From Desulforapulum autotrophicum (GTDB lineage: Bacteria; Desulfobacterota; Desulfobacteria; Desulfobacterales; Desulfolunaceae), in NCBI GenBank assembly GCA_020723285.1, contig DYJE01000039.1, forward strand, positions 1 through 43,760: a stretch of 43,760 nt of DNA, read 5' to 3'. Of the stretch, positions 3,699-43,760 are shown piece by piece. The position numbers and the translations under genes were made by a program. Position 1 is the first letter of the stretch. Each line of letters opens with the position of its first letter. A model generated the notes under the pieces. That model was not told where the DNA came from and made no database searches. It saw nothing but the letters and a program-made list of their open reading frames with translations.

Positions 3699-3783
3699 TC
3701 TCCGGCAGGAAACTTGCAAGCCCTAAGCGGGTTTATCGATATTGAACTCTGCAAACCAAGACTGTTTAACGCAAAGGAAAACC

Positions 3784-6700: not shown

Positions 6701-8142
6701 AGGAACCTTACGGCTGTTTCGAGCAGGCGTCGTCCAGCACCTATCCCAACATCCTGGTGCTGGATTACCTGAAAGAGCAGAAAGACCCGGACCCCTCCCT
6801 GATGAAAAAGGCCTGTGATCTTATCGGAAAAGGGTACGAACGTCTGGTGGCTTATGAAACCCAGGAAAAAGGCTACGAATGGTTCGGCGAAAAACCCGGC
6901 CACGAGGCCCTGACCGCTTACGGACTCATGGAGTTCAGGGATATGGCGATGGTATACCCCGGTGTGGATGCGGCCATGGTAAAACGCACGGGGGACTGGC
7001 TTCTTTCACGCCGTGACGGCCAGGGCGGATTCGCCCGAAACGCCAAGGCCCTGGACAGCTTTGGACGGGCCGATGCCGCCGTGACCAACGCCTACATTGT
7101 CTATGCCCTGTCCGAAGCCGGTTATGTTTTCGAAATCAAGGCCGAACTGGACAAAGCCGTCGAAACGGCCGTAAAAACCAAAGACCCCTATCAGCTGGCC
7201 CTTATGGCCAACGCCCTGTTCAACGTGAAAGACCCCCGGAAAGAAGAGATCCTCAAACAACTCCTCACCCTCAGAAAAGATGACGGAAGCTACATTGGTC
7301 TTTCCACCTCCGTCACCTGCTCCACCGGAGCGTCTCTCACCGTCGAAACCACGGCGCTGGCCGTTCTGGCCCAATTGAAATCCACGGCTCCCGATGCCCG
7401 GAGTCTGGAAACCTCGGTGCGCTTTCTTGTTTCCGCCCGTTCGGCTTATGGAGGATTCGGCAACACCCAGAGCACCGTTCTGGCGTTGAAAGCCCTCACC
7501 AACTTTGCCAGGTTCTCCCGAAGGACGGCCGAATCAGGGCGCATCGTGGTGTTCGTGGATGACAGGCCCGTGAGTTCCGTGTCCTACGCCAAGGGTGAAA
7601 CCCAGGAAGTGACTCTGCCGGAAAGGGAACTGTCCGGCTGTTTCAAGGAAGGCTCGTCACGGGTCCGTGTTCTTTTCGAAGGTGTGACCCAGGCCCTGCC
7701 CTACACCTTTTCCCTCACATACAACACGTATCAGCCAGCCTCTTCCGGTGTCTGTCCCCTGAAATTCGAAACAAAACTCGACACCCAGGAAGTCAACGTC
7801 GGAAACCCCTTGCGGATGACGGTCACTCTCACCAACACCGTAAAAGACAAGGGCCAGCCCATGAGCCTTGCCGTCATCGGCATTCCGGGCGGACTTTCCC
7901 CCCTTCCATGGCAGATCAAGGAACTTCAGGACAAAAAGATCGTGGATTACGTGGAGATTCTGGGCAACAACCTGGTGCTGTACTACCGCCAGATGAAGCC
8001 CGGTGAAACGAAAACCGTTCTTCTTGATCTGAAAGCCGAGGTTCCCGGCATCTACGAAGGCGCCGCATCAAGCGCTTACCTCTATTACAGTCCGGAGAAC
8101 AAGGTCTGGGTCAAGGGGGCACAGGTCAAGATTCATGAATGA
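3784..8142 (+). CDS. Alpha-2-macroglobulin family thioester protein
   Basis: The 1452-residue product starts with a basic tail and one hydrophobic segment (residues about 6-25), a signal or membrane anchor. The ATG at 3784 is chosen because AAAGGAAAACC precedes it; an in-frame ATG 14 codons upstream has no ribosome site. Residues about 55-165 look like an MG2 domain (VYLSCDKPFYYPGETVWFEA). A central macroglobulin region follows, then an Ala/Met/Pro-rich stretch (about 670-705) where a bait region may lie. An A2M domain begins near 755 (FRSTLYFKGLVETD). The thioester motif YGCFEQ has Cys at residue 978, inside an alpha/alpha-toroid region, and a receptor-binding-like C-terminus closes the protein. 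Such proteins trap proteases covalently in the envelope. Homologues often pair with pbpC; here none is adjacent. Its 3' end overlaps the opposing kinase gene by 17 bp. Confidence 0.9.
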   Translation: MRRQKKYAAIVLFFLMFIVAGFGIFQPGSQALTLFKKLSKKTTVVPFKARFQAFQDAMPEDRVYLSCDKPFYYPGETVWFEAYVRNAADMKPSLKSEIVHVEWIAPSGNVVKELHLIARNGTAAGDVNLPESMPGGIYTLKAFTSWQKNSPEPAFFVKDVPVQNVILPAVKMKLDFLKESYGPGDEVLVKFDVAARDDKPLQDQTYTCGVLLSGKRHKEIKGKTRKDGSALIRFTLPENLDSADGVLSVTLPYEGKTESIARSIPILATRLDVGIYPEGGDLVTGIESRVAVRVRDEFGKPADVSAVVETSDGKRVTEFDTVHQGMGLFKLKPSISTGYVIRIVKPKGVSGQFPLPSSLERGYVLEASVREGKEAVVLVKSTEKEMMTVTVRSRGKHYDERSFMAGQGENRLSFDLSSFPMGVAQITLFDSKNIERAERLCFIHPKKQLKISLSTDKKVYGPREKVTLTVKTTDDRGLPVPAQFTVSVADDNLLTFADDKQGHILSKLLLEPDLTGDVFEPSFYFDEKEKKRDEAMDLLMMTQGWRRFTWKAVLAETPPTLSFPGERAEIKGTVLMGTGRPEPAAGAKVTVESSGKSVIADEKGQFIIRDLDLYKTESLVASKGAQTGFPVSVSRYDTPLTVYLSPRIFERMDLKGRAKGMDVPMAVGAVPEALNAFTAEDEGAGKMAMMAVPPPMPAPVMAKPVEQDNEPARRVAMEIMDPRFMGKIRRDVIPVDDGQAPVYTRARVFPETVYETTETDTRSDFRSTLYFKGLVETDRRGVARLTFCNSDAVTSFRAVAEGISADGLVGRADHAYSTALPFSLDVKIPVSVSMGDEVSLPLTLSNGTGKTLAGSLDITVPQGFKSLGPLNLDLSVEKGQAKTLLVPFVVADMPGKTTFKATFSSGKDSDTVVKDITVAPRGFPVSIGLSAQEKDKTFDVTVEKPVPGSLVARFSAYPTVASELVKGIESILQEPYGCFEQASSSTYPNILVLDYLKEQKDPDPSLMKKACDLIGKGYERLVAYETQEKGYEWFGEKPGHEALTAYGLMEFRDMAMVYPGVDAAMVKRTGDWLLSRRDGQGGFARNAKALDSFGRADAAVTNAYIVYALSEAGYVFEIKAELDKAVETAVKTKDPYQLALMANALFNVKDPRKEEILKQLLTLRKDDGSYIGLSTSVTCSTGASLTVETTALAVLAQLKSTAPDARSLETSVRFLVSARSAYGGFGNTQSTVLALKALTNFARFSRRTAESGRIVVFVDDRPVSSVSYAKGETQEVTLPERELSGCFKEGSSRVRVLFEGVTQALPYTFSLTYNTYQPASSGVCPLKFETKLDTQEVNVGNPLRMTVTLTNTVKDKGQPMSLAVIGIPGGLSPLPWQIKELQDKKIVDYVEILGNNLVLYYRQMKPGETKTVLLDLKAEVPGIYEGAASSAYLYYSPENKVWVKGAQVKIHE

Positions 8143-9304
8143 ATGATTTGGAAAAAGGAAGAATAACCTCGAAACAGGTGCCCTTGCCCGGTTCCGACGA
8201 AACGGTGATGTCGCCGCCGCAGGACTCCACCATGGATTTGACGCTGGCAAGGCCCAGTCCGGTGCCTTTGCCCGGCTGCTTGGTGGTGTATCCTGATTCG
8301 AAGATGCGATCGATCCTGTCCGCTTCAATCCCCTCTCCGCTGTCCGTGATTTTCAGAACGATGCTGCTTCCGCTGACAGCGGTCTCAAGGGTGAGTTCTT
8401 TTCTGGCGGTAAATTCCATGGCGTCCACGGCATTTTTAACCAGGTTGTCCAGAATCTGTTTGATATGCAGGGGATTTCCCTTGAAATACGGCAGGGATTC
8501 GCAGAGGCGCAGATTCCGCCGGACCGTATGGGCGTAATGGCTGTCCATGCTGAAAAACCGGTCTTCTTCCCGGATGATGGCGTTGATGTCCACGTCCTGA
8601 ACGTAAAGCGGGTCCTCATGCCGGGACCGGTTCATAATCTCCGCGATGATGTTTCGCATTTTTTCGGCACAGTGCATGCCGTCCGCGCAGTGCCCTGCCA
8701 GTTCGTCCATATCCGGGGGGTCATCGGTCAAGCCTTCCTTGATCAGAAAAAAAAGCCCTGAAATATTGCTCAGTGTGTTGTTCAGGTTGTGGACGATATG
8801 GGCCGTATGGGTTCCGATCATGGCCATACCCATGGATTCCATCATCTGCCGTGTCCGCTCCTCGACCTTGATCTCCAGCGCGGCGTTCTGCTCGGTAAGC
8901 TGATGAAGCAGCTGTTGCCGTTCCTCGTTCAGAGCGTGATAATCCAGGGCCTGACGGATCAGCAGCTTCAGTTCCGTATCGTTCCAAGGCTTGGAGATGT
9001 ACCGGTAGATGTTGCCCGTTTCCATGGCTCTTAATATCGTTCCCGAGTCAGAAAGTCCTGAAACGATGAGCCGGACCGTCGAGGGGTGGGCCAGGGCGAT
9101 GGTGCGCAGAAGTTCAAGCCCATCCATTTCGGGCATGGAAAGATCGGTCAGCACCACATGGACAGGGTTTTCATTCATGACCCCAAGGGCAGCGCGCCCG
9201 TTTTCAGCGGTCAAAAGACGGTAAGGTTCGTTTTTAAGGGTTCTTGCAACGGCTTTCAACACATGGGGCTCGTCATCGACGAGAAGCACGTTTTTGCTGT
9301 CCAT
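8126..9304 (-). CDS. Receiver-histidine kinase hybrid, HNLNN-type H box
   Basis: The 392-residue soluble protein has a receiver domain (1-120) with phospho-acceptor Asp54 in VLTDLSMPEMD and the SKPW lysine loop. A coiled coil (about 122-155) leads to a HisKA-like region with His172 in AHIVHNLNNTLSNI. The HATPase_c domain has N box DNLVKNAVDAM, G1 DSGEGI and G2 GKGTGLGL. There are no membrane segments, so input comes through the receiver from another kinase. The residue after the active His is Asn, where most HisKA kinases have Glu or Asp; that acidic residue helps phosphotransfer or phosphatase activity, so catalysis may differ. No output regulator is adjacent. It is transcribed divergently from the acyltransferase gene and converges on the macroglobulin gene. 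Confidence 0.92.
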   Translation of the reverse strand: MDSKNVLLVDDEPHVLKAVARTLKNEPYRLLTAENGRAALGVMNENPVHVVLTDLSMPEMDGLELLRTIALAHPSTVRLIVSGLSDSGTILRAMETGNIYRYISKPWNDTELKLLIRQALDYHALNEERQQLLHQLTEQNAALEIKVEERTRQMMESMGMAMIGTHTAHIVHNLNNTLSNISGLFFLIKEGLTDDPPDMDELAGHCADGMHCAEKMRNIIAEIMNRSRHEDPLYVQDVDINAIIREEDRFFSMDSHYAHTVRRNLRLCESLPYFKGNPLHIKQILDNLVKNAVDAMEFTARKELTLETAVSGSSIVLKITDSGEGIEADRIDRIFESGYTTKQPGKGTGLGLASVKSMVESCGGDITVSSEPGKGTCFEVILPFSKSFIHES

Positions 9305-9552
9305 AGGACCTCATGTCATCATAATGTGGGTAGGGTTCTCTCATTCCAAGGATGGTGTCTTCAAAAATATACGTGAAACAACGGGCGAAGAAAACCAAAA
9401 AAACCAGCAAATCTCAGAGTCCTGATGTTTCGGACAGCCGGAAAAAGTTTTCCCTCACGCATTGTTTTTTGAACCAATACGATATATAGAACGGAACGTT
9501 TTGTGACGTACAAAAGGTCCGTCTTTTCAACTTTCTTGCTGCTGGAGTGTTT
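9305..9552. promoter_or_regulatory. Divergent intergenic region with inverted repeat
   Basis: This AT-rich gap must hold the promoters of the kinase (leftward) and acyltransferase (rightward). TTTTGT and ACAAAA at 9499-9515 form a perfect 6-bp inverted repeat with a GACGT centre, about 40 bases before the acyltransferase start, and may be an operator. No clear -35/-10 pair stands out. Confidence 0.35.
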
Positions 9553-10125
9553 ATGAAACAATTCTGGAGTCTTGTCGGAAAATCTCTTTATATGGCCATG
9601 GGCTGGCGCTTTGAGCCCCTTCCCCCTTATTTTTTAAAAAAACACGTGATCATCGGTTTTCCCCATACCAGCAACATGGACACGGTGCGGGCGTTTACAG
9701 GTTTTCGGATCGTCAAGCGCACCGGGCATGTCATGATCAAAAAAGAGTGGTTCAAATGGCCCATGTCCGTGTTTCTTGGAGCCATCGGCGGAATTCCCGT
9801 GGACCGCAAGGCGGCCAGCGGGGTCGTGGGACAGATGGTGGATATTTTCAACGAACGGGACGAGTTTCTCCTGGCCATCGTACCCGAAGGCACTCGCAAG
9901 GAAGTCCGAACCATCAAAACTGGATTCTGGCACATTGCCAAGGCGGCCGATGTGTCGATCATCTGCTGGTATCTGGACAACGACCATAAAACCACCCGCT
10001 GGCTCGGGGAAATCATCCCCGGCGACGACAAGGTGGCCGACATCCTCCGTATACGCCAGATCTACGCCGACGCCGGCTACACCTTTCCCCTCGATGTGGA
10101 GTCCATTCCCAAAGAATACCGGTAG
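9553..10125 (+). CDS. PlsC-type 1-acyl-glycerol-3-phosphate acyltransferase family protein
   Basis: The 190-residue protein carries the HX4D acyltransferase motif as PHTSNMD (His38, Asp43), the GGIPVDRK block near residue 78 and VPEGTRK near 113, in the order and spacing of the PlsC family. These motifs transfer an acyl chain from acyl-ACP or acyl-CoA to a lipid hydroxyl at the inner membrane. It is shorter than typical PlsC (about 240 aa), and the acceptor is not certain: lysophosphatidate is the default but other small members modify different lipids. The ATG at 9553 follows CTGGAG; a GTG two codons upstream is the alternative. It is a single-gene unit closed by a strong terminator. Confidence 0.88.
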   Translation: MKQFWSLVGKSLYMAMGWRFEPLPPYFLKKHVIIGFPHTSNMDTVRAFTGFRIVKRTGHVMIKKEWFKWPMSVFLGAIGGIPVDRKAASGVVGQMVDIFNERDEFLLAIVPEGTRKEVRTIKTGFWHIAKAADVSIICWYLDNDHKTTRWLGEIIPGDDKVADILRIRQIYADAGYTFPLDVESIPKEYR

Positions 10126-10436: not shown

Positions 10437-10639
10437 CATTCGCGCAATCGGAACAGACGTATGGAAACCAGGCTATAAAAAAATCAGCTCCCCTCTTACC
10501 GCGTTTTTCACCCCTCCGCTTCCATGGCACAGCCCATGCAAAACCAGAATCTTTTGAAACGGCCCGGTGATCGATAAAAATTTCCTGCTAAGAGTTTTTC
10601 ACGTTCATCGGCTGGGGGTCACAGATCTGGAGGTGAGAT
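10437..10639 (+). promoter_or_regulatory. Leader of the lone receiver gene
   Basis: No gene is seen here. The stretch ends with a strong ribosome site, CTGGAGGTGAGAT, directly before ATG 10640. An AT-rich part around 10470-10600 probably carries the promoter, but no clear -35/-10 pair can be named. Confidence 0.4.
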
Positions 10640-11047
10640 ATGGAAGCCATGATGGTGCTGCTGGTGGATGACGAAACGCGGTATCTTGAAACCACACGGA
10701 AACTTCTGGAAAGAAAAGGCTACAGGGCCATGACCGCCTCAAGCGGCCCCGAAGCCCTGGCCAGACTTGCGGAAAACGAGATCCATGTGGTGATTCTCGA
10801 TGTGAAGATGCCCCATATGGACGGGCATGAAACGTTCCGGGAAATTAGGAAGCATTATCCGCTGGTGGAGGTGATCATGCTCACCGGCCACGCCACGGTG
10901 GACTCCGCCATCGAGGGCCTGAGGGAAGGGGCTTTCGATTACCTGATGAAACCCACGGATGTGGATGTGCTCATTGAAAAAGCCGAAGAAGCTTTCGAGA
11001 AATATAAAAAACACCGGGCCCGAATCGCGTCCTCCGTGTCCGGATAA
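10640..11047 (+). CDS. Single-domain response regulator
   Basis: The 135-residue protein is a receiver domain with acidic pair Asp10/Asp11, phospho-acceptor Asp54 (VILDVKMPHMDG), the LTGH threonine and the MKPT lysine. About 20 charged residues follow, with no DNA-binding or enzymatic output. Such receivers act by protein contact or as phosphorelay shuttles. It is monocistronic: the 150-bp element lies upstream and a strong terminator downstream, and no partner kinase is next to it. The soluble kinases at 8126-9304 and 22622-23827 are candidate partners, but nothing in the sequence links them directly. Confidence 0.93.
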   Translation: MEAMMVLLVDDETRYLETTRKLLERKGYRAMTASSGPEALARLAENEIHVVILDVKMPHMDGHETFREIRKHYPLVEVIMLTGHATVDSAIEGLREGAFDYLMKPTDVDVLIEKAEEAFEKYKKHRARIASSVSG

Positions 11048-11132
11048 TCAGAACTTCATCCGGGTTTCCGGTGAACGTGATCGTGAATGGCCTAGGTAAC
11101 GTTCATGGCGCTGAATCCGGGAGTGTCGGAGG

Positions 11133-11180
11133 CCGGATATGCCTGTATAAAATACCACCCTGGCATATCCGGTTTTTTTT
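11133..11180 (+). terminator. Rho-independent terminator after the lone receiver gene
   Basis: CCGGATATGCC (11133-11143) and GGCATATCCGG (11162-11172) form a perfect 11-bp stem with an 18-base loop, followed directly by eight T residues. It lies about 85 bases after the receiver stop codon. Confidence 0.92.
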
Positions 11181-11302
11181 CAAATGGCCTCTGCCTGCAT
11201 TGAAATGCGATTTCCAGCTTGTAAAAATACGGAATACATGCATAAATGGTTGCCCGTCACAGGTCATAATATTATCGGGTACAATCCGGTCTGGTGCATG
11301 TT

Positions 11303-11953
11303 ATGTTTTTTGAATTCACAATGAATGCGGTCAGTTCCATGGCACATCCCGTGGCACTGTACTTTCTGCTCACCGGGATTCTGCTGTTGTGCGGATTCGG
11401 TCTTCCCCTGCCGGAAGACGTGATTCTCATCACGGGCGGATATCTGGCCTATTCCGGTTACATGGATATCCGTATTTTTCTGGTTCTGGCCATGGCCGGT
11501 GTTCTTCTCGGCGACAGCAGCATGTTCATGATCGGAAAAAAAACCGGGGATTCGATATTGAACCACCGGTTTTTATCCCAGTTCATCAAGCCCTTTCACA
11601 TACGGAAAGCACGGAATGTCATCGAAAAATACCATGACCGCATCTTCTTCATCGCCCGGTTCCTTCCCGGCCTGAGATCCGCCATTTTTTACACAGGCGG
11701 CGCCCTTAAAACCAAGTTCATGAAATTTTTCCTGTACGACGGTATCGCCGCACTGATCAGCGTTCCGGCCCTGGTTCTCGGGTCCTATTTCGGCGGGGAG
11801 TACATCGACCAGGTGTTCAGGGTGGCCAAAGGCGTTCAGACCGCCCTTGTGGTTCTGTCGATCCTTCTGGTCGCGTTTGTGGTGATCCGGGTCCGGCAGT
11901 GGATCAAGCAGAAAAACGTCCATGGAAACGATTCCACTGAAAATAAAGCGTGA
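11303..11953 (+). CDS. DedA family inner-membrane protein
   Basis: The 216-residue protein has the DedA pattern: an early re-entrant hydrophobic segment with GFGLPLPEDVILITGGYLA, the conserved arginine block FIARFLPGLRSAIFYTGGAL near residue 120, and hydrophobic segments near the C-terminus. DedA proteins are polytopic membrane proteins that help lipid-carrier or phospholipid recycling and keep the proton motive force; the substrate of this one is unknown. Possible starts are GTG 11294, ATG 11303 and ATG 11321, none with a strong ribosome site; 11303 is taken. The last 32 bp overlap the start of the M14 peptidase gene in another frame, so the two are probably co-transcribed. Confidence 0.9.
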   Translation: MFFEFTMNAVSSMAHPVALYFLLTGILLLCGFGLPLPEDVILITGGYLAYSGYMDIRIFLVLAMAGVLLGDSSMFMIGKKTGDSILNHRFLSQFIKPFHIRKARNVIEKYHDRIFFIARFLPGLRSAIFYTGGALKTKFMKFFLYDGIAALISVPALVLGSYFGGEYIDQVFRVAKGVQTALVVLSILLVAFVVIRVRQWIKQKNVHGNDSTENKA

Positions 11954-13424
11954 TGTCCTGATCGTCCTGATTATCCTCTGCCTTCCATGCCAGGCCCTGT
12001 CTGCCTTTTCTGACAGAACGCCCCACGAAATCCGGATATCGGCTCATGGCGGCCTTGAACGGCTGGTCCGCCTTGGAACGGACATCGACCGTGTTTCAGG
12101 TCTTGCCGTTTCGGCCTACCTGTCGCCGTCTGAATTTAAAAACCTCATCTCCATGGGCTACAGTGTCCGCCCTGTTCCCGACCGTGAAATAACGGCGTAC
12201 AAGCTGTATTACGGCAGAAAAAGTAAGGCCGCCACGGATCTGTATTACCCGCTTTACAGCGAACTTTCAGATCGCATCACGCAGTTTGCAACGTCATATC
12301 CGGCCCTTTGCCGGGTTGAAAGCATCGGTCAATCGGTTGAGGGCAGGGAAATCTGGGCCGTCACGGTCACCGGCAACCCGGACACCCGTGAACCGGAACC
12401 GGCCGTCACCCTGATTGCCACCCTTCACGGCAACGAACCTGTAGGGACCGTTCTTTTGATGGAACTGACAGAACACCTTCTTGAAAACCACGGCACGGAC
12501 CCGCGTGTGACGGCGCTTGTGAATCACCATGAAATCCGTATCGTTCCCTTGGCCAACCCCGACGGTTATGCCAGCGGCGACCGTTACAACGCCCAGGGTA
12601 CGGACCTTAACCGCAACTTTCCCGACCCATCACCGAATTCTGCGGATTATTTCGACAGTATCGACGGCAGAGCCCCTGAAACCCTGGCACTCATGGCCTG
12701 GATCATGGACCGACCAGCAGCTGTTTCACTCAATCTGCACACAGGTTTCCTCGTGGTGAACTACCCCTATGATTTCACCCTGGACACTGCACCGGATGAC
12801 ATTCTGTTTCAGCACATGTCCCTGGCCTACGCTGCGAACTGCCCGGACATGGCCGCCAGCGTGTACGCGAACGGCATCGTCCGAGGGGCCGAATGGTACG
12901 TGATCGAAGGCGGACTTCAGGACTGGGCCACCCTTGGTAAAGGCGAACTTCATGTGACGGTGGAGCTCAGCAACGAAAAATACCCTGCCCCCCAAACACT
13001 TTCCGCATTGTGGAACGCCAACCGCGACGCCCTTCTGGCCTATATGGAGACGTCGGACACGGGCATCGGCGGCCGGATTCTGGACAGGGCGTCCGGTGAG
13101 CCCCTTTCAGGATGGATTCATATCGAAGGAAACAGCCACGACGTGTTTTCCGAGAGACAGACCGGATTTTTCATGCGGGTCCTCCGGCCCGGAACGTATA
13201 CGATCACGGCCTATGCGGAAAACCATGTGTCGAAATCCGTCAGGGATCTTTCGGTTGTGCAGGGCGAAACAACGATCTGTGATTTTTTACTGGAAAAAGG
13301 AAGCGATCCGGATCATCCCGGCACCAAGGAGACCAACTGGCCCCGGATCGAGGCCGTGGCCGATCATTCGGAACCGGCCCGTTCGGAAGAGGATTCCGGG
13401 TGCTTTATCGGATGCGTTTTATGA
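11922..13424 (+). CDS. Secreted M14 zinc carboxypeptidase
   Basis: The 500-residue protein begins with a signal peptide (about 1-28, VLIVLIILCLPCQALS). After a pro-like region it has a peptidase M14 domain (about 110-375): zinc ligands His169 and Glu172 in TLHGNEPVG and His273 in NLHTG, substrate residues Asn230-Arg231 in TDLNRNFPDP, and catalytic Glu348 in HVTVELSNEKYP. A transthyretin-like carboxypeptidase regulatory domain (about 380-460) follows, as in the N/E (M14B) subfamily. The enzyme would remove C-terminal residues from peptides outside the cytoplasm. The C-terminus ends in SGCFIGCVL after an acidic, low-complexity tail. It overlaps the DedA gene by 32 bp. Specificity for basic residues is typical of the subfamily but not proved here. 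Confidence 0.93.
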   Translation: METIPLKIKRDVLIVLIILCLPCQALSAFSDRTPHEIRISAHGGLERLVRLGTDIDRVSGLAVSAYLSPSEFKNLISMGYSVRPVPDREITAYKLYYGRKSKAATDLYYPLYSELSDRITQFATSYPALCRVESIGQSVEGREIWAVTVTGNPDTREPEPAVTLIATLHGNEPVGTVLLMELTEHLLENHGTDPRVTALVNHHEIRIVPLANPDGYASGDRYNAQGTDLNRNFPDPSPNSADYFDSIDGRAPETLALMAWIMDRPAAVSLNLHTGFLVVNYPYDFTLDTAPDDILFQHMSLAYAANCPDMAASVYANGIVRGAEWYVIEGGLQDWATLGKGELHVTVELSNEKYPAPQTLSALWNANRDALLAYMETSDTGIGGRILDRASGEPLSGWIHIEGNSHDVFSERQTGFFMRVLRPGTYTITAYAENHVSKSVRDLSVVQGETTICDFLLEKGSDPDHPGTKETNWPRIEAVADHSEPARSEEDSGCFIGCVL

Positions 13425-37582: not shown

Positions 37583-37612
37583 TGTAGGGGCAATTCATGA
37601 ATTGCCCCTACA
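37583..37612. repeat. 30-bp perfect palindrome after ilvE
   Basis: TGTAGGGGCAATTCA is followed at once by its exact inverted copy TGAATTGCCCCTACA. It lies 20 bases after the aminotransferase stop codon and can form a 15-bp hairpin. Similar GGGGCAATTC palindromes are common intergenic repeats in bacteria. There is no T run, so it is called a repeat, although it may also stop transcripts or protect their 3' ends. Confidence 0.75.
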
Positions 37613-37986
37613 GCGGCCCCGCAAATTCACCCTTCTCCATTCGCGCCCCAAAGTTCCCTAAAAGATGATTGTATTCTCGTTTTTCCTGGCCGTCCGCCGG
37701 TTTAAACGCCTGTTTTCCCTATGGCCTGTTTTTTTACAGTGCTGTAAAAAATCCTTGACAACACCATTTTGCCGTGACACATTGTCGACAATCGACAAAC
37801 TACATTCGACAATCAATTCGGTACGCCTTGCTTTCCGGATTATTTCGTGATCCATCCGGCGAAAAACCGTCGGAAACCTGTAACCGTAAGGACGTCAATC
37901 ACAACTCCGTGGCAGCCGGATTGATGCGGCATGTCATTGAGGTCACGGTTTGATGACGCCCTGATTAACCTGAAGGAGCCATTTCA
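37613..37986 (+). promoter_or_regulatory. Regulatory region of the dehydratase/reductase operon
   Basis: No gene is seen here. TTTTTTACAG/CTGTAAAAAA with a TG loop makes a strong inverted repeat around 37730-37751. TTGACA at 37755-37760 is a possible -35 box. ATTGTCGACAAT (37781-37792) is a perfect palindrome. The heptamer TCGACAA occurs at 37785, 37792 and 37806. From about 37830 to 37986 there is a leader of about 150 bases ending in GAAGGAGCC, the ribosome site of the first gene. I recognise no known riboswitch in it. Confidence 0.5.
37781..37812. promoter_or_regulatory. Operator-like palindrome plus phased TCGACAA heptamers
   Basis: ATTGTCGACAAT is a perfect 12-bp palindrome. TCGACAA begins at 37785, 37792 and 37806, offsets of 7 and 14 bases, so all copies are in 7-bp phase. 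TTGTCGACAA-like sites are known for several GntR-family regulators. The regulator of this site is not identified in the window. Confidence 0.5.
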
Positions 37987-39441
37987 ATGAAATCGCTATC
38001 GCAGCAAAACGGCAACGGCCATGGAAACGACCTGTCCGCCGTGATCTCCGGCATACTGAAGACCCGTGAAACACGGGGTCTGATGGCGGATGTGGTGCCG
38101 GACATCATGGAGGCCTGGGCCGGGGATAACCGTCTGAAAAAGAAAATCGCAGGACAGATCGAGGGTTTCGTCCGAAAGACACTGAACGGATCTCCAGTCA
38201 ATTCAGGAATTTCACTGACGGATCTCATGAACGACACCGCCTTTGCATCGTCGGCGGCCCGATTTCTGCCGTCGGCCGTGACGGTGCTTGCGGATGCTCT
38301 GAACGCCCTGACCGCCCACTTCGAAACCGCGTCAGACGACGACCGGGAACGGTTCATGACCGAGCTTCTGGACAGTGTGTCCCGGAGCCGTGCAGGCCAC
38401 ACGGTGAGCACGGTTTTGAAAACCCTGAACCGCTGCTACGAGGAAAATCCCGCCTACCTGTCGGAAAAACTCGGCAAAGCCGTGGTCACCTGGATGGAAG
38501 GGCTTGATTTCGGGGAGATCCGCGATTTTATCGACCTTTCGGCGGAAGACATGAAAACCCTCACCTCCGCCGTGGTGGATACTTTGTGGAAATACCCGTC
38601 CAAGCTGGTTCTGGGCCTGAGCTTCATCGCGGACATCGTGAATTCCGCCACGTTCGCGTCCGCGGAATTTCTGGCCATGACCAACAAAATCTCTCCGGAT
38701 CTTCTGACCGATGTGGTGTTTTCGATTTTCAGGAACGTGGACGGCAAATCCGCGGCAAGGCTCCTGAACCAGGTGTCCGAACTGGTGCGGAAGATCCACA
38801 CCGGCAGCGCCCTTCTGGGCGATCCGGGAACCACCCAGCTTCCCATCGACCTGACCCGGTTTCTTGAAGATTTCCTTTCCGTTTTCGATGGGGAACTGAT
38901 GTGGAAAGCCAAGGTGGCCTTTGAAGAGGAAAAGGAAATCGTGGCCCGGGTGTTCTACCAGGTGATGAAGGAAAATCCGGAGCGGCTGGAACGCCGGATG
39001 ATCCGTTATTCGTCCCTCAAAAACGCGCAGATCCGCGCCCTTCTTCACCACATGTCCGCCATGACCCAGCTGCCGGAACAGGAGGTGGCCGACTCGGCGG
39101 AAAAAGGACTGGCCGCCGTGGAAACCCAGGATCTGGCCGAGGTTGTTAATCTGTTCTTCCTTTTCATGAACAAGATCAGCGACCTCAAACCCTCCCTGAT
39201 CCCAGGCCTTGTGGCCCAGTTTGCGGATGCCCTGGATCTTTACGAGGTGAACGACGGGCTTGAACAATTTTTTGAAACCGTGGGCGAGGCCCTGATTCCC
39301 TTGGAACGGGTGATCGTGCCCAAGGTGGTAAAGCACCTGTGCACGGTGCTTGCCCCCAGAGACGACGATTACGAACAGGAAGCCGCCGAAGCCCGCTCCA
39401 TGCTCCGCGCGCTGCTTCTGGGTGAGGAGGTGACGGTATGA
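37987..39441 (+). CDS. Unrecognised helical protein leading the dehydratase operon
   Basis: I do not recognise this 484-residue protein. It has no signal peptide, no membrane segment and no Cys cluster, and it appears almost wholly alpha-helical with amphipathic repeats (for example LLDSVSRSRAGHTVSTVLKT, VVNLFFLFMNKISDLKPSLI, LEQFFETVGEALIPLERVIV), in the manner of HEAT- or ARM-like scaffolds. AAGGAGCC precedes the ATG. Its stop overlaps the next start (ATGATGA), so it is translated with the dehydratase subunits and is probably needed with them in similar amounts. It could be an assembly factor, scaffold or encapsulating partner of the iron-sulfur enzymes; this is inference from position only. 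Confidence 0.8.
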   Translation: MKSLSQQNGNGHGNDLSAVISGILKTRETRGLMADVVPDIMEAWAGDNRLKKKIAGQIEGFVRKTLNGSPVNSGISLTDLMNDTAFASSAARFLPSAVTVLADALNALTAHFETASDDDRERFMTELLDSVSRSRAGHTVSTVLKTLNRCYEENPAYLSEKLGKAVVTWMEGLDFGEIRDFIDLSAEDMKTLTSAVVDTLWKYPSKLVLGLSFIADIVNSATFASAEFLAMTNKISPDLLTDVVFSIFRNVDGKSAARLLNQVSELVRKIHTGSALLGDPGTTQLPIDLTRFLEDFLSVFDGELMWKAKVAFEEEKEIVARVFYQVMKENPERLERRMIRYSSLKNAQIRALLHHMSAMTQLPEQEVADSAEKGLAAVETQDLAEVVNLFFLFMNKISDLKPSLIPGLVAQFADALDLYEVNDGLEQFFETVGEALIPLERVIVPKVVKHLCTVLAPRDDDYEQEAAEARSMLRALLLGEEVTV

Positions 39442-40619
39442 TGAAGGAGTTTTACGACGCGGCAACCCGCATCCGAAGTGACGTATTGAGCCGGTGGAAG
39501 GACACAGGCGGCAACGTGGTGGGCTACACATGCTCCTACGTGCCTTCAGAAATCTTTCATGCCGCCGGAATCCTGCCCTACAGAATAAGGGGCATCGAGA
39601 CGGAAAGCATGGAAATCGCCGACGCTTATTTCGGCCCGTACATCTGCACCTTTCCCAAGTGTGTGCTCCAGCTGGCCGGAAAAGGGAAGTACGACTTCTT
39701 AGACGGTGCCATCATCACACCGGGCTGTGACAGCATGCGCCGCCTGGACGAGTGCTGGCGCAAAGCCGGCGATGCCATTCCCGGCATCGTTCCTTCGTTT
39801 TTCTATTATTTCGATGTGCCCCACAAAAGCATCGGCCACGGCACGCGCTGGTTCCGTGAAGAAATCGTGAACCTCATCAAGGCCCTTGAAAACCAGTTCG
39901 GCATCACCATCACCGATGAAAAGCTGAACGCATCCATCCGGCTGTACAACCGGGCCCGGCGACTTCTGAAAGAACTGGAAGACCTGAGGGCCAAAGACGC
40001 CGTGGTGATTTCCGGCACCGACGCCTTTGCCGTGACCATGGCGGGCACGGCCATGCCCCGTGAGGAGTACACCGAGCACCTGGAAAACCTGGTGGCAAGC
40101 CTTAAAAAGAAAAAAGCGAAAAAAGACGAACGGAAACGGATCATGCTCATCGGCAGCATCAGCGACGACATCAGCCTGGTGGATCTGGTGGAACAGAGCG
40201 GCAAAGCCGTGGTGGTCACGGAAAATCTCTGTTTCGGCGTGCGTGATGAAGGCAACGAGGTGGCGGAAGAGGGCGATCCCGTGGACGCCCTGGCCAAAGC
40301 CTACCTGGGCGAAAGCACCTGCCCCAGGATGTACGGGAAATACAAGGAACGGCTGGCCACGCTTTCAGCGATCATCCGTCGTTCCAACGTGGACGCCGTG
40401 GTGATGCAGAACATCCGTTTCTGCGACCTTCACGGATCGGAAAACGGTCTGTTCGAACGGGATCTGGAAAAAGAGGGCATACCCTGTATCCGCCTGGAGC
40501 GGGAATACGGGCCCCTGGTTGAAACAGGACGCCTCCGGATGCGCATCGACGCCTTTTTCGAAAGGCTGGAATCCCAGAGGCCGCACAAAGAAAACGTATA
40601 CAGCATGGAGGCCGTATGA
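39438..40619 (+). CDS. 2-hydroxyacyl-CoA dehydratase / benzoyl-CoA reductase subunit (C-like)
   Basis: The 393-residue protein belongs to the HgdB/FldB/BcrC family (dehydratase D-component). Cys32 (GYTCSYVPSEIFHAAGILPY), Cys70, Cys75 and Cys97 (ITPGCDSMRRLDECW) lie where family members hold a [4Fe-4S] cluster; CFGVRDEG is a later conserved segment. The two related subunits bind the acyl-CoA and receive one electron at very low potential from the activase. The start is ATG 39438 or 39441, overlapping the upstream stop. Its stop overlaps the second subunit gene as ATGA. Substrate cannot be told: aromatic acyl-CoA, or 2-hydroxyacyl-CoA from amino acids. Confidence 0.9.
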   Translation: MMKEFYDAATRIRSDVLSRWKDTGGNVVGYTCSYVPSEIFHAAGILPYRIRGIETESMEIADAYFGPYICTFPKCVLQLAGKGKYDFLDGAIITPGCDSMRRLDECWRKAGDAIPGIVPSFFYYFDVPHKSIGHGTRWFREEIVNLIKALENQFGITITDEKLNASIRLYNRARRLLKELEDLRAKDAVVISGTDAFAVTMAGTAMPREEYTEHLENLVASLKKKKAKKDERKRIMLIGSISDDISLVDLVEQSGKAVVVTENLCFGVRDEGNEVAEEGDPVDALAKAYLGESTCPRMYGKYKERLATLSAIIRRSNVDAVVMQNIRFCDLHGSENGLFERDLEKEGIPCIRLEREYGPLVETGRLRMRIDAFFERLESQRPHKENVYSMEAV

Positions 40620-42016
40620 GACCGGAAATCCTCGAATACAACATGGACTGGATGCTTTGCAGCATCATGATGGCCGCGTCCAAAACCGCCGACGGCTCCA
40701 GGAAGGAATACGACCGCCTTCAGCCGTACATCCCCTATTTCAGCGGCATTCTTGAGCCCATGGTGAACGCCGGAAAACCGGGGATCACCTTTTTGAAGAT
40801 GTTCACCGATTATCTGGACAACATCGTCACGGCCCACGACAAGGGGAAAAAAGTGGCCCTCACCACGTTCTGCTTCTCTCCGTCGATTCTCTATTCCATT
40901 GACGTGGTGCCGGTGACGCTGGAAATCTTAACCACCTTCGGCCGTCTGATGTGGAGACGGGGCATCGTGGATTACCTGGACTACTGTGTGGAACTGGGCC
41001 TCACGGAAACGGCCTGCTCGGCCCAGCGGGGCAGCATGGGGGCCTATCTCGCAGGGCTCGGTGCCCATGTGGACATGGTGATCTGCGACACGCCCGGCGT
41101 CTGCGACACCAACGCCAACTCCTTCACCTTTGCCGCTGCCTATCTGGACAAGCCCTATTTCCAGCTGAACTACCCCCAGACCATCGGCGATGAACGGACC
41201 GACAAATACCACCTGGAAGACTACATGGCCATGATCGATTTTCTCGAAAAAAACACCGGGAAAAAACTCGATCTGGACCGATTGAAACTGACCCTGGATG
41301 AAATCAAGATCCAGGACCAGCTGGTGTCGGACCTTGAAGACTACCACCGTCTTGTTCCCACGCCCCTTCCCGTGATTTTCAACCTGTTCATCTATGCAGG
41401 AAGGTTCATGTTCGCCGGGGAACCCATCTACACAAAACTCTTGAAAGAAATGCTGGAAGTGGCTGGAGAAAAGGCGGCCAAAGGTGAATCGGGCCTCACT
41501 TCCGGCAAAGAAAACCTTAGGGCCTTCATGTGCTACATCGACCACTACGCCATCAACCTCCAGTTCTACGACTGGCTGAACGACAACGGCATCGCCCACC
41601 TGGGGGGGATTCTTTCCCGTACTTTCAATATCGCTTCTCCCTACATCAAAGGGCTGGAAGGTTCAGGGTACTCCATCGACACCTCGTCCATCGAGACCAT
41701 GATCGACAGCATCGCCCAGATGAACGCCCGCATGCCCATGGTCCGGAGCATAAGGGGCCAGTACGACAAACCCGGCATGTGGTTGGAGGAAACCCTGGCA
41801 CTGGCCAAGATGTTCAAGGTGGACTGCATCATCTACAACGGCACACCGGGCTGCCGGAACACCTGGGGCATGGTCAAGCCCTTTGCCATGGATCTTGAAA
41901 AGCACGGGTATCCCACCCATGTGATGTACGGCGACGCCTTTGACGAACGGGTGGAATCCTGGGAGGCGTCCCTTGAAAGACTCAACGAATTCTTCAACGT
42001 AAGGGGGTTGCTATGA
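40616..42016 (+). CDS. 2-hydroxyacyl-CoA dehydratase / benzoyl-CoA reductase subunit (B-like)
   Basis: The 466-residue protein is the larger second subunit of the same family. Candidate cluster ligands are Cys86 (TTFCFSPSILYSIDVVPVTL), Cys134 (ETACSAQRG), Cys157 and Cys163 (ICDTPGVCDTNANSF). Later blocks YDWLNDNGIAHLGG, MPMVRSIRGQYDKPG and YNGTPGCRNTWGMVKPF correspond to the family's substrate and cluster-binding regions. At 466 residues it is longer than most HgdA/BcrC proteins and close to the size of BcrB. It overlaps both neighbours by 4 bp. It would pair with the preceding product to form the catalytic dimer. Confidence 0.9.
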   Translation: MRPEILEYNMDWMLCSIMMAASKTADGSRKEYDRLQPYIPYFSGILEPMVNAGKPGITFLKMFTDYLDNIVTAHDKGKKVALTTFCFSPSILYSIDVVPVTLEILTTFGRLMWRRGIVDYLDYCVELGLTETACSAQRGSMGAYLAGLGAHVDMVICDTPGVCDTNANSFTFAAAYLDKPYFQLNYPQTIGDERTDKYHLEDYMAMIDFLEKNTGKKLDLDRLKLTLDEIKIQDQLVSDLEDYHRLVPTPLPVIFNLFIYAGRFMFAGEPIYTKLLKEMLEVAGEKAAKGESGLTSGKENLRAFMCYIDHYAINLQFYDWLNDNGIAHLGGILSRTFNIASPYIKGLEGSGYSIDTSSIETMIDSIAQMNARMPMVRSIRGQYDKPGMWLEETLALAKMFKVDCIIYNGTPGCRNTWGMVKPFAMDLEKHGYPTHVMYGDAFDERVESWEASLERLNEFFNVRGLL

Positions 42017-42810
42017 CACTGGTCGCAGGGTGCGATGTGGGTTCCCTCACATCCAAGGCCGTCATTTTGAAAGACAATGCGCTTCTGGGCATCGGCGTGG
42101 TGAAATCCCTGGCCGATCCTCAGGATTCGGCGGACGCCGCCATGAAACTGGCCCTTGACAACGCGGGATGCAGCTTTTCAGACATCCGGCACTGCGTAGG
42201 CACGGGCTACGGCAGGGAGCGGATCAGCTTCGTCAACGAGGCACGGTCGGAAATCGCCTGCCACGGCAAAGGAGCATTGTGGCTGGTGCCATCGGTCAGG
42301 ACCGTCATCGACATCGGCGGCCAGGACTGCAAGGTGATCCGCATCGACAAGGACGGCGTGGTGGAGAAATTCATCACCAACGACAAATGCGCCTCGGGCA
42401 CGGGACGGTTCCTGGAGGTCATGGCCAAGGTGCTGAACATCAGCCTCACCGAACTGGGGGAACTCTCGGAGAAAACCGAAACCCCCATCACCTTTGCCAG
42501 CATGTGCACGGTGTGGGCCCAGGCGGACATCATCAAATACCTGAACTCCGGCCACAGCGTTGAGGACATCGGCGCGGGCATCAACGCGGCCATGGCCAAA
42601 CGGGTGGCTATGCTGGCCGGAGCCGTGAAACCGGAAAAGGATGTGGTGATGACCGGAGGTGTGGCCAAGAACAAAGGCGTGGTGTCCACCCTTGAAAAGG
42701 TCATGGGCGTCCGGATCCGGAAAGTCCGGAAAGCGGACCCCCAGATCGCCGGGGCCATCGGCGCCGCACTTTTTTCAAAATCACGGCTAAACGGCGGAGG
42801 TGCTAAATGA
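42013..42810 (+). CDS. Acyl-CoA dehydratase/reductase activase, first copy (A-like)
   Basis: The 265-residue protein is an ASKHA-fold ATPase of the BcrA/BadF/HgdC type: GCDVGSLTSKAVIL at the start, the second ATP block VIDIGGQDCKVI, the cluster Cys126 in NDKCASGTGRFLEVMA, Cys165 in ASMCTVW, and VMTGGVAKN. Two subunits share one [4Fe-4S] cluster and use ATP to push an electron onto the catalytic dimer. It differs from the second copy at many positions (for example C106 in GGQDCK versus A), so the two are distinct proteins that may form a heterodimer as in benzoyl-CoA reductase. It overlaps both neighbours by 4 bp. Confidence 0.94.
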   Translation: MTLVAGCDVGSLTSKAVILKDNALLGIGVVKSLADPQDSADAAMKLALDNAGCSFSDIRHCVGTGYGRERISFVNEARSEIACHGKGALWLVPSVRTVIDIGGQDCKVIRIDKDGVVEKFITNDKCASGTGRFLEVMAKVLNISLTELGELSEKTETPITFASMCTVWAQADIIKYLNSGHSVEDIGAGINAAMAKRVAMLAGAVKPEKDVVMTGGVAKNKGVVSTLEKVMGVRIRKVRKADPQIAGAIGAALFSKSRLNGGGAK

Positions 42811-43589
42811 TCGTTGCAGGATGTGATGTGGGCTCGCTCACGGCCAAGGCCGTGATCATGAAAGACGGCGAGATCCTCGCCAGTGCTGTGGAACGGGCGG
42901 GAACGCGGCCCAAAGACTCGGCGGAGCGGGTGCTGGACATTGCCCTGTCCATGGCGGGACTTAAGCGGGAGGATATCCGGTTCGCCGTGGGCACAGGATA
43001 CGGCAAAGACCAGATTCCCTTTGTGAACCAGTCGGAATCGGAGATTTCGTGCCACGCCAAGGGGGCCTGGTGGCGCATGCCGTCGGCCCGGATGGTCATC
43101 GACATCGGCGGCCAGGATGCCAAGGCCATCAAAATGGATGAAAACGGCACCATAGTCCGGTATGTGTACAATGACAAATGCGCCTCGGGCACGGGGCGGT
43201 TTCTCGAAGTCATGGCCGAAGCCCTGGGCGTGCCCCTGGAAGACATGGGCAGCCTTTCCGAGCAAAGCACGGAAAAGCTCACCATCAGCAACCAGTGCGT
43301 GATTTTCGCCGAAACCGAGGTGGTGTCTCTCATCAACGAGCGGAAAAAACCCCAGGATATCGCAAGGGCCCTTCACAAAGCCCTGGCCAGCCGGGTGGCG
43401 TCACTGGCCAAAAGCATCGGCGTTGACGAAGACATCGTGATGACCGGGGGGGTCGCGAAAAACAGCGGCGTGTTCAAGGCCTTGTCCGAAGGGCTGGGGT
43501 TGCCGGTGAAAAACCTGCCGGACATGGACCCGCAGATCAACGGAGCGCTGGGGGCGGCTCTGATTGCGGGGGAGAAGATGAAGAAATGA
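42807..43589 (+). CDS. Acyl-CoA dehydratase/reductase activase, second copy (D-like)
   Basis: The 260-residue paralogue of the preceding gene has GCDVGSLTAKAVIM, VIDIGGQDAKAIKM, cluster Cys125 in NDKCASGTGRFLEVMAE, Cys164 in SNQCVIFAE, and VMTGGVAKNSGVF. It is an ATP-dependent one-electron activator of the same family. Two different activases in one operon is the pattern of class I benzoyl-CoA reductase (BcrA and BcrD), while simple 2-hydroxyacyl-CoA dehydratases have one homodimeric activator. It closes the five-gene operon; after its stop at 43589 come only repeats. Confidence 0.94.
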   Translation: MIVAGCDVGSLTAKAVIMKDGEILASAVERAGTRPKDSAERVLDIALSMAGLKREDIRFAVGTGYGKDQIPFVNQSESEISCHAKGAWWRMPSARMVIDIGGQDAKAIKMDENGTIVRYVYNDKCASGTGRFLEVMAEALGVPLEDMGSLSEQSTEKLTISNQCVIFAETEVVSLINERKKPQDIARALHKALASRVASLAKSIGVDEDIVMTGGVAKNSGVFKALSEGLGLPVKNLPDMDPQINGALGAALIAGEKMKK

Positions 43590-43713: not shown

Positions 43714-43760
43714 GATGGACTCGTAAAAAGTCGCCCGATGGCTATGGAAAAAGGCCCAGA
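43714..43760. mobile_element. Second copy of the 150-bp MITE-like element (cut by window edge)
   Basis: GATGGACTCGTAAAAAGTC at 43714-43732 is identical to the reverse complement of the right end of the element at 10249-10398. The next 28 bases (CGCCCGATGGCTATGGAAAA and on) match it with about one difference. It is in the opposite orientation to the first copy and again adjoins the dispersed repeat. The rest of the element lies beyond the window. Confidence 0.85.

Follow-up and report, generated by a model that had tools for sequence, protein, structure and literature searches.

How does the operon reported here relate to systems that have already been described? The Had system makes do with a single activase, and the DCCP system consists of one HGD-D protein and one activase. 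Unlike the Had and Hgd systems, our operon has two different activases. Its plan is that of the class I benzoyl-CoA reductase (BCR) BzdNOPQ (PDB 8s02; PMC11971306), in which two HGD-D subunits are joined by two activases, and of the 3-methylbenzoyl-CoA reductase MbdNOPQ (PDB 9g87, 9gai), which likewise has four subunits. It departs from BzdNOPQ, however, in that a helical protein, HEL, is added, and in that most relatives further add ACS-like and CooC-like genes. By description only, the operon can also be likened to a ketone-induced pair of HGD-D subunits in strictly anaerobic sulfate reducers, which is given as functionally unassigned in passages of PMC7888143 and PMC8084838; in the same passages, the Desulfotomaculum pair belongs to a cluster that also encodes a TDP enzyme and a B12 mutase, and the Desulfosarcina cetonica pair lies elsewhere. 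Among the open-licence PMC listings and passages searched, none gives an earlier description of the operon, and passages of PMC5322559 concern selenium genes. The potentials attained by double-cubane enzymes lie close to the biological limit, and few reactions have been assigned to this group; the present gene set brings to it a subunit of its own, a pair of accessory proteins akin to those of carbon monoxide chemistry, and a putative regulator site.

The operon lies towards the end of the window, by which we mean the whole stretch of 43,760 nucleotides that was analysed. ORF calling yields five frames between 37987 and 43589, connected by four 4-bp overlaps and encoding, from 5' to 3', the 484-residue helical protein, the two HGD-D subunits and the two activases (Table 1). 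A five-gene operon with such overlaps had been proposed in the first-pass annotation, and its ORFs are found exactly at the positions claimed, with Pfam in agreement for four of the proteins (cut-offs of 28.4 bits for HGD-D and 31.5 bits for BcrAD_BadFG); the comparison with bcrCBAD likewise holds, two HGD-D subunits and two different activases being united in one operon. As contig C64 ends at 43760, 171 bases after activase 2, the operon may run on past the window; in the nearest relatives, a CooC-like gene lies directly downstream, on the same strand in locus L089 and on the opposite strand in locus L088. The statement that no ferredoxin is present can be upheld for the readable part only, as the cluster of some relatives includes a protein with several [4Fe-4S] clusters; a flavoprotein head is absent from the window copy. 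A second copy of the gene set is found in the same genome, that of a bacterium related to sulfate reducers, and this duplication, together with the joint occurrence of HEL and the large-subunit clade in 16 of the 297 phylum genomes surveyed, argues for the operon being more than a chance arrangement.

Table 1. Features of the operon and its flanks (positions in the window)
Feature	Position	Strand	Assignment
Perfect palindrome ATTGTCGACAAT	37781-37792	.	predicted operator of GntR-FCD regulator
Promoter-like sequence overlapping the palindrome	37785-37813	+	9/12 consensus matches
HEL, 484 aa	37987-39441	+	all-helical repeat protein; no Pfam family above cut-off
Small HGD-D subunit, 393 aa	39438-40619	+	PF06050, 312 bits; predicted [8Fe-9S] double-cubane protein
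Large HGD-D subunit, 466 aa	40616-42016	+	PF06050, 147 bits; predicted catalytic [4Fe-4S] subunit
Activase 1, ATPase BcrAD_BadFG, 265 aa	42013-42810	+	PF01869, 202 bits
Activase 2, ATPase BcrAD_BadFG, 260 aa	42807-43589	+	PF01869, 199.5 bits
3' edge of contig C64	43590-43760	.	reading stops 171 bases past the last activase

We lean towards viewing the operon as encoding an ATP-driven, class-I-BCR-like reductase of acyl thioesters with an obligate helical partner, its substrate and reaction being what we infer. Electrons from ferredoxin or flavodoxin would enter a [4Fe-4S] cluster held between the two different activases. With ATP hydrolysis as the driving force, they would move first to the small subunit's double-cubane [8Fe-9S] cluster and next to the open-coordination [4Fe-4S] cluster in the large subunit, the site at which the acyl-thioester substrate would be reduced. 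As the fold of HGD-D proteins and activases serves dehydratases too, sequence alone leaves the step of reduction unproven.

The ligand residues were compared at positions taken from PMC11971306, in rows from 26 loci hand-chosen among 99, which also supplied the trees. All six double-cubane cysteines (Cys32, 70, 97, 265, 295 and 329) are kept in 26/26 small subunits, that of the window included, and the three cluster cysteines and the glutamate of the large subunit in 29/29, as they are in BzdNOPQ; the residues of the window's large subunit are Cys134, 163 and 413, Glu103 and Asn166. Its third cysteine aligns with a cysteine in 4/4 curated Bzd rows, the partial PDB chains giving no comparison here. 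The six cluster cysteines are likewise found in DCCP/YjiM (PDB 7yyl). HadBC/HadI (2-hydroxyisocaproyl-CoA dehydratase; PDB 3o3m, 4eht) has the same fold, and HadB shares two cluster cysteines and the glutamate of the large subunit as far as its fragment covers them; HadC, however, keeps 4/6 ligand positions of the small subunit, and MbdN has cysteine at 3/6. The position of BzdO His131, a histidine in 4/4 curated Bzd rows, is asparagine in 29/29 aligned large subunits, so that the proton chemistry must differ from that of BzdO.

Judged by sequence, the operon stands apart as a separate branch. In trees built without BcrB, BcrC, MbdO, FldBC and HgdAB as references, both subunits form separate clades at 100/100, apart from BzdNO, HadBC and the double-cubane proteins, with DCCP/YjiM on a separate branch of the small-subunit tree and MbdN elsewhere on a long branch. 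The NCBIfam equivalogs agree with this separation: the small subunit scores 164.2 bits against a cut-off of 421.15 for BcrC, 160.7 against 453.8 for BzdN and 173 against 700 for HadC, and its best score, 188.9 bits for the DCCP equivalog NF040772, is also under the cut-off of 350, as is the second score with this model, 27.6; for the large subunit, no BCR model appears among the matches at E up to 0.1. The separate branch suspected in the first-pass annotation is thereby substantiated within this set of references, the subunits lying outside the characterised clades and HEL outside the Pfam and NCBIfam families. A putative DCCP-like gene with an activase occurs on another contig (C85) of the same genome. 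Among plasmid records, the large subunit has no match and a BzdN query retrieves distant relatives in 26 records; the two regions examined form long branches in the small-subunit tree, whereas neither the tree of the large subunit nor the ligand table retained them.

Could the enzyme instead belong to the 2-hydroxyacyl-CoA dehydratases, its second activase being an unusual addition, so that one electron serves many turnovers of an amino-acid-derived substrate without net reduction? The HGD-D fold is common to both, the large-subunit profile A4 has HadB (3o3m_A, E 6.9e-17) as its best PDB match, and ORF list and Pfam place a class IV aminotransferase gene 423 bases upstream of the operon. This gene, however, has at most one sequence-cluster partner among the 99 loci, and the window's large subunit as a single query matches a double-cubane protein only in the PDB. 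With the incomplete ligand set and distant equivalog score of HadC as opposed to six cysteines throughout the small subunits, and the activase pair being conserved, we regard a dehydratase as unlikely. The small subunit has BzdN (8s02_B, E 1.2e-44) as its best PDB match. The two activases score 249.4 and 243.9 bits with TIGR00241, activase 1 has MbdQ (9gai_D, E 4.2e-59) as its best PDB match, and of the 62 named loci that have room, the profile map shows two activases after the large subunit in 57, as in BCR-type enzymes, a count made over a fixed downstream distance that scores L097, L111 and L113, where the activases precede the focal large subunit, as misses.

The benzoyl-CoA reductase likeness carried an aromatic implication that our survey does not bear out, and benzoyl-CoA is probably not the substrate. 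In the operon's own genome, which is 97% complete, the model of the ring-opening hydrolase, TIGR03200, finds nothing at E up to 1e-60, and among the survey genomes such matches are rarer in carriers (3/27) than in others (62/167), a difference whose Fisher p of 0.008 takes genomes as independent and is supportive only, as both traits follow lineages. On this scarcity and the asparagine at position 131 we reject the canonical benzoyl-CoA pathway. An aromatic acyl-CoA reductase whose aryl-CoA substrate, for example a polycyclic or substituted one, is not opened by the usual hydrolase would retain the architecture and ligands of class I BCRs and could account for ligase-like and enoyl-CoA-hydratase-like neighbours (5/99 loci each, by eye and untyped) and for a Smithella-type ACAD-like protein whose best NCBIfam match is cyclohexane-1-carbonyl-CoA dehydrogenase, with 98.4 bits where the cut-off asks for 650; the missing hydrolase match and the uniform loss of the histidine nevertheless speak against it, and we hold it to be slightly less probable still than a dehydratase. 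Benzene activation clusters, considered as a further possibility, consist of other genes in passages of PMC13101534 and PMC13416013; the latter also mention that an HGD-D-like cluster of strain BzS1 went undetected.

HEL has no counterpart among the families searched, with a best Pfam score of 15.2 bits against a cut-off of 24.3 and nothing from NCBIfam at E up to 0.1. The protein contains related segments and a conserved middle part, Asp174 to Leu276. Its AF2 model has a pLDDT of 88.3; the whole model finds nothing closer in the PDB than a Foldseek E of 2.1 and a VIA Z of 4.4, and the core, residues 136-330, has no Foldseek match there. Such a missing match does not prove a new fold. HEL would be an obligate partner of the reductase, serving either as a scaffold or as the holder of a bulky hydrophobic acyl group. 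That it always accompanies the enzyme is true of the phylum sample, in which HEL and the large-subunit clade occur in the same 16 genomes (16/16), and nearly so of the order sample, with HEL in 27 of 28 carriers among 194 genomes; the exceptions are genome G405 of the order sample, which has the large subunit alone, and loci L112, L141 and L142, which have no HEL gene despite room for one. The 297 and 194 genomes of these samples were drawn from larger groups, and the locus counts describe nearest relatives, the named-genome scan having taken the best 80 of 132 relatives and kept 78 loci. The gene set is widespread in Desulfobacterota and Spirochaetota, and its short gene list lends itself to substrate finding by proteomics in a culturable carrier, for example Desulfoluna limicola (strain ASN36, locus L132).

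What do the neighbouring genes add? As ORFs in GC-rich loci are partly miscalled, locus counts were taken from the profile map. Of the 51 loci with room for it, 48 have an ACS-like gene in this map, and for the CooC-like gene the figure is likewise 48 of 51; the second operon of the genome has both genes. Some contigs appear twice among the 99 loci (for example L075/L131, L072/L141 and L083/L160), which affects the counts of neighbour clusters, aligned CooC- and ACS-like proteins and ACAD-like proteins given here, and leaves the 78 named loci unaffected. The CooC-like proteins, which we take to be such from their Walker A and CxC motifs (60/60 aligned), have general library matches of the MinD/ParA/NifH type; the ACS-like protein carries an invariant CxxCx5C tail (60/60 aligned) and resembles ACS at about residues 317-482 only. 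By analogy with the ACS literature it presumably binds CoA, and our open-licence PMC search found no paper supporting this. In most relatives, this ACS-middle-domain protein and the CooC-like ATPase would be part of the set. The motifs and the recurrence of both genes might also suggest that the operon encodes a machine which matures or reductively activates another metalloenzyme and has these two proteins as its clients; however, neither CODH nor full ACS was seen by eye among 15 recurrent neighbour clusters, and with the resemblance to ACS so confined, this is the least probable of the readings weighed here.

Some relatives add the multi-[4Fe-4S] protein and ACAD-like proteins, and some have genes that, judged by eye, resemble flavodoxin, enoyl-CoA hydratase or thioesterase, all of which points to acyl thioesters. 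A point against our reading is that 34 of 36 ACAD-like sequences lack the Glu of the YEG motif, so that these neighbours are something other than simple beta-oxidation enzymes; the GMC label derives from weak NCBIfam and PDB matches. Taking the acyl-thioester reductase further, one may tentatively picture an undescribed class of ATP-driven low-potential reductases, in which an obligate helical subunit of new fold, paired with a double-cubane HGD-D enzyme, would present a bulky acyl thioester, a CoA-binding ACS-middle-domain protein and a CooC-type metal chaperone would be dedicated partners, and the substrate would lie outside aromatic catabolism; we consider this extended version possible, though doubtful.

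Thioester chemistry could also serve membrane lipid synthesis, in a system reducing an acyl ester or acyl thioester in the manner of PlsA/Ger, which in passages of PMC13274423 perform ester-to-ether chemistry with PF01869 activation domains. An acyl-ACP-thioesterase-like gene, recognised by eye, adjoins the operon in loci L109 and L116. In PlsA/Ger, however, the same passages place the activation domains within one protein, as opposed to the four separate subunits here, and the regulators adjacent to the operon look catabolic (one typed as GntR-FCD, the others by eye), so that we judge a lipid-modifying role very improbable.

A GntR-FCD regulator would control the operon, its binding being suggested by the shared palindrome. 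ATTGTCGACAAT occurs once in the window, where 0.14 would be expected with up to one mismatch; the promoter call overlapping it is weak, as the scanned region holds 3 such sites against 2.4 expected. The regulator's own gene (L009:464-1159, minus strand) is not preceded by an exact copy. Of 69 loci, 7 have the loose form TTGTNNACAA ahead of the module, where shuffled sequences give 0.74, and in 60/69 upstream regions it is missing or placed elsewhere; ATTGTCGACAAT itself recurs in 9 of the 78 named loci. In the 5.44-Mb genome ATTGTCGACAAT has four sites, as compared with none for a reversed-pattern control. Two of these precede the two operons, and the other two may be due to chance, one lying, by eye, close to where a tamB-like gene starts and the other within an ORF.

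What kind of enzyme is encoded at the end of the window? Joined by four 4-bp overlaps, the five ORFs of the operon run from HEL (484 aa) through two HGD-D subunits of the reductase/dehydratase type (393 and 466 aa) to two BcrAD_BadFG activases (Pfam), and as the window is the complete contig C64 (43760 bases), the readable sequence stops 171 bases past the last gene. This anatomy fits the benzoyl-CoA reductase (BCR)-like enzyme named in the first-pass annotation; the enzyme would work in the manner of a class I BCR, yet it falls short in tests of membership of this class. Its make-up is consistent with a double-cubane reductase that is driven by ATP, has a helical protein as its obligate partner and acts on an acyl thioester; the substrate, the type of reaction and the role of HEL are what we infer here.

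A study of BzdNO gives Cys36/73/100/263/293/327 as double-cubane ligands and Cys95/128/380, Glu65 and His131 as the large-subunit site (PMC11971306). In alignment rows drawn from 26 selected loci, all six double-cubane cysteines are kept in 26/26 small subunits, whereas HadC keeps four of these positions and MbdN three. The large subunits have the Cys positions and the Glu in 29/29 rows, the available parts of the PDB chains ending before the third Cys; the position of His131 in BzdO, however, is Asn in all 29, as against His in 4/4 curated Bzd rows.

The proposed separate branch of the family is borne out by trees with partial PDB chains and several long branches, from which BcrB/BcrC, MbdO, FldBC and HgdAB are absent. 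The small subunits form one side of a 100/100 branch, inside a larger set (100/99) that also takes in the second-set subunits and further paralogues from Desulfobacterota, and are separate from BzdN, MbdN, HadC and DCCP; the large subunits likewise form one side of a 100/100 branch, separate from BzdO and HadB. NCBIfam equivalog scores lie far under cut-off. The implied aromatic substrate fared less well. The ring-opening hydrolase model TIGR03200 matches in 65/194 order genomes (E <=1e-60) and in 3/27 HEL carriers (Fisher p = 0.008, lineage not corrected), no match at this E-value was found in the own genome, and BzdN-type proteins exceed the cut-off in 5/297 phylum genomes. Judged by gene content, this rarity makes a canonical benzoyl-CoA route unlikely, while the operon may act on another aryl-CoA.

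For the helical partner of the proposed reductase, an AlphaFold2 model (50 sequences) is all-helical, with a pLDDT of 88.3, or 90.7 for the core (residues 136-330); no PDB fold match was found for the whole model or the core. Since its thirds, compared as profiles, show a kinship probability of 88-95%, HEL looks like a diverged repeat. Nine residues are invariant, all in the middle part: Asp174, Pro204, Lys206, Asp238, Asp242, Glu265, Arg268, Gly273 and Leu276.

That HEL always accompanies the subunits holds in the phylum sample, where HEL and the large-subunit clade (>500 bits; next phylum genome, 246) occur in the same 16/297 genomes, and nearly so in the order sample of 194, which shares some genomes with it: HEL is in 27, the clade (>500 bits) in 28 and both in 27, G405 having the large subunit without HEL. 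The best 80 of 132 relatives from a scan were kept as 78 loci (Desulfobacterales, Smithella/Syntrophaceae, Spirochaetota and a few others; by title nearly all MAGs). In profile-map counts of loci with room, HEL lies upstream in 58/61 (not in L112, L141 and L142), a small subunit is present in 57/61, two activases lie downstream in 57/62 (fixed distance), and ACS-like and CooC-like genes occur in 48/51 each. Of 52 loci with room, 36 have a GMC-like flavoprotein as upstream head, 11 have ACAD-like proteins, five have neither and none has both; L074, outside this count, carries the two kinds together, downstream of its large subunit. Most loci with an ACAD-like head have one or two extra, shorter HEL homologues. 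The window's nearest relatives, L088 and L089, lack either head; a CooC-like gene lies directly downstream in both (opposite strand in L088), and an ACS-like gene is present in L088 and was not found in L089. Of 99 loci (some contigs counted twice), 25 also have a large HGD-D subunit of a second family and 23 a multi-[4Fe-4S] protein.

The Glu of the YEG motif, which we take to be the catalytic base, is missing in 34/36 ACAD-like sequences; both heads are therefore flavoproteins of uncertain activity. All 60 aligned ACS-like members carry CxxCx5C at the C-terminal end, and all 60 CooC-like members a Walker A motif and CxC. PF03598 scores 50.8 bits on one ACS-like member; in another, that of the second operon, the ACS match is confined to about residues 317-482. 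This paralogous set, on the minus strand of contig C12 in the own genome, has a GMC-like head, HEL (27% identity to the window's HEL), small and large HGD-D (51% and 52%) and two activases, followed by an ACS-like protein, a CooC-like ATPase and, further away, a GntR-FCD regulator.

Upstream of the window operon, a separate gene pair encodes a TrmB-type regulator and a class IV aminotransferase; the gap to HEL measures 423 bases (421-424). In this gap lies ATTGTCGACAAT (with <=1 mismatch, 14/100 shuffles match), of which the 5.44-Mb genome holds four copies, two preceding the window and C12 operons, and none of the reversed pattern. It occurs in 9/78 loci, in five close before a GntR-like gene (L088, L094, L118, L133, L158); Pfam, run on the own-genome GntR, supports the identity there. 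A GntR-type regulator is predicted to bind ATTGTCGACAAT, but no exact copy was found before the own-genome GntR gene, and a loose form is upstream in only 7/69 loci, against 0.74 expected. The gap also has a 30-bp palindrome, which may be either a terminator or a mobile repeat of small size.

L072 and L141, whose contigs are equal in length, are probably one contig; the flanking genes of their large HGD-D gene encode an ACAD-like pair, an ACS-like protein and a third ACAD-like protein, the last with the YEG Glu intact. The wider relatives L185-L197, some of them stretches that end early, have HGD-D pairs, mostly with activases and with no HEL match, often beside GMC-, ACAD-, ACS-, CooC-like or Fe-S genes.

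Coordinates of the operon, the predicted site and further features
Sequence	Positions	Feature
Window	3742-8142	alpha-2-macroglobulin family protein, 1466 aa
Window	37583-37612	perfect palindrome, 15-nt arms, no loop
Window	37781-37792	ATTGTCGACAAT
Window	37987-43589	five-gene operon, + strand
L011 (own genome, C88)	7535-9643	702-aa protein, a single chain combining activase and HGD-D parts; other HGD-D system type
L072	7066-13753	large HGD-D gene without HEL
L141	7333-14020	large HGD-D gene without HEL
L149	16731-17690	radical-SAM-like gene (by eye), downstream of module
L156	15416-16375	radical-SAM-like gene (by eye), downstream of module
L203 (own genome, C75)	10445-12373	outer-membrane protein, FadL-like (by eye), close to the C75 palindrome copy
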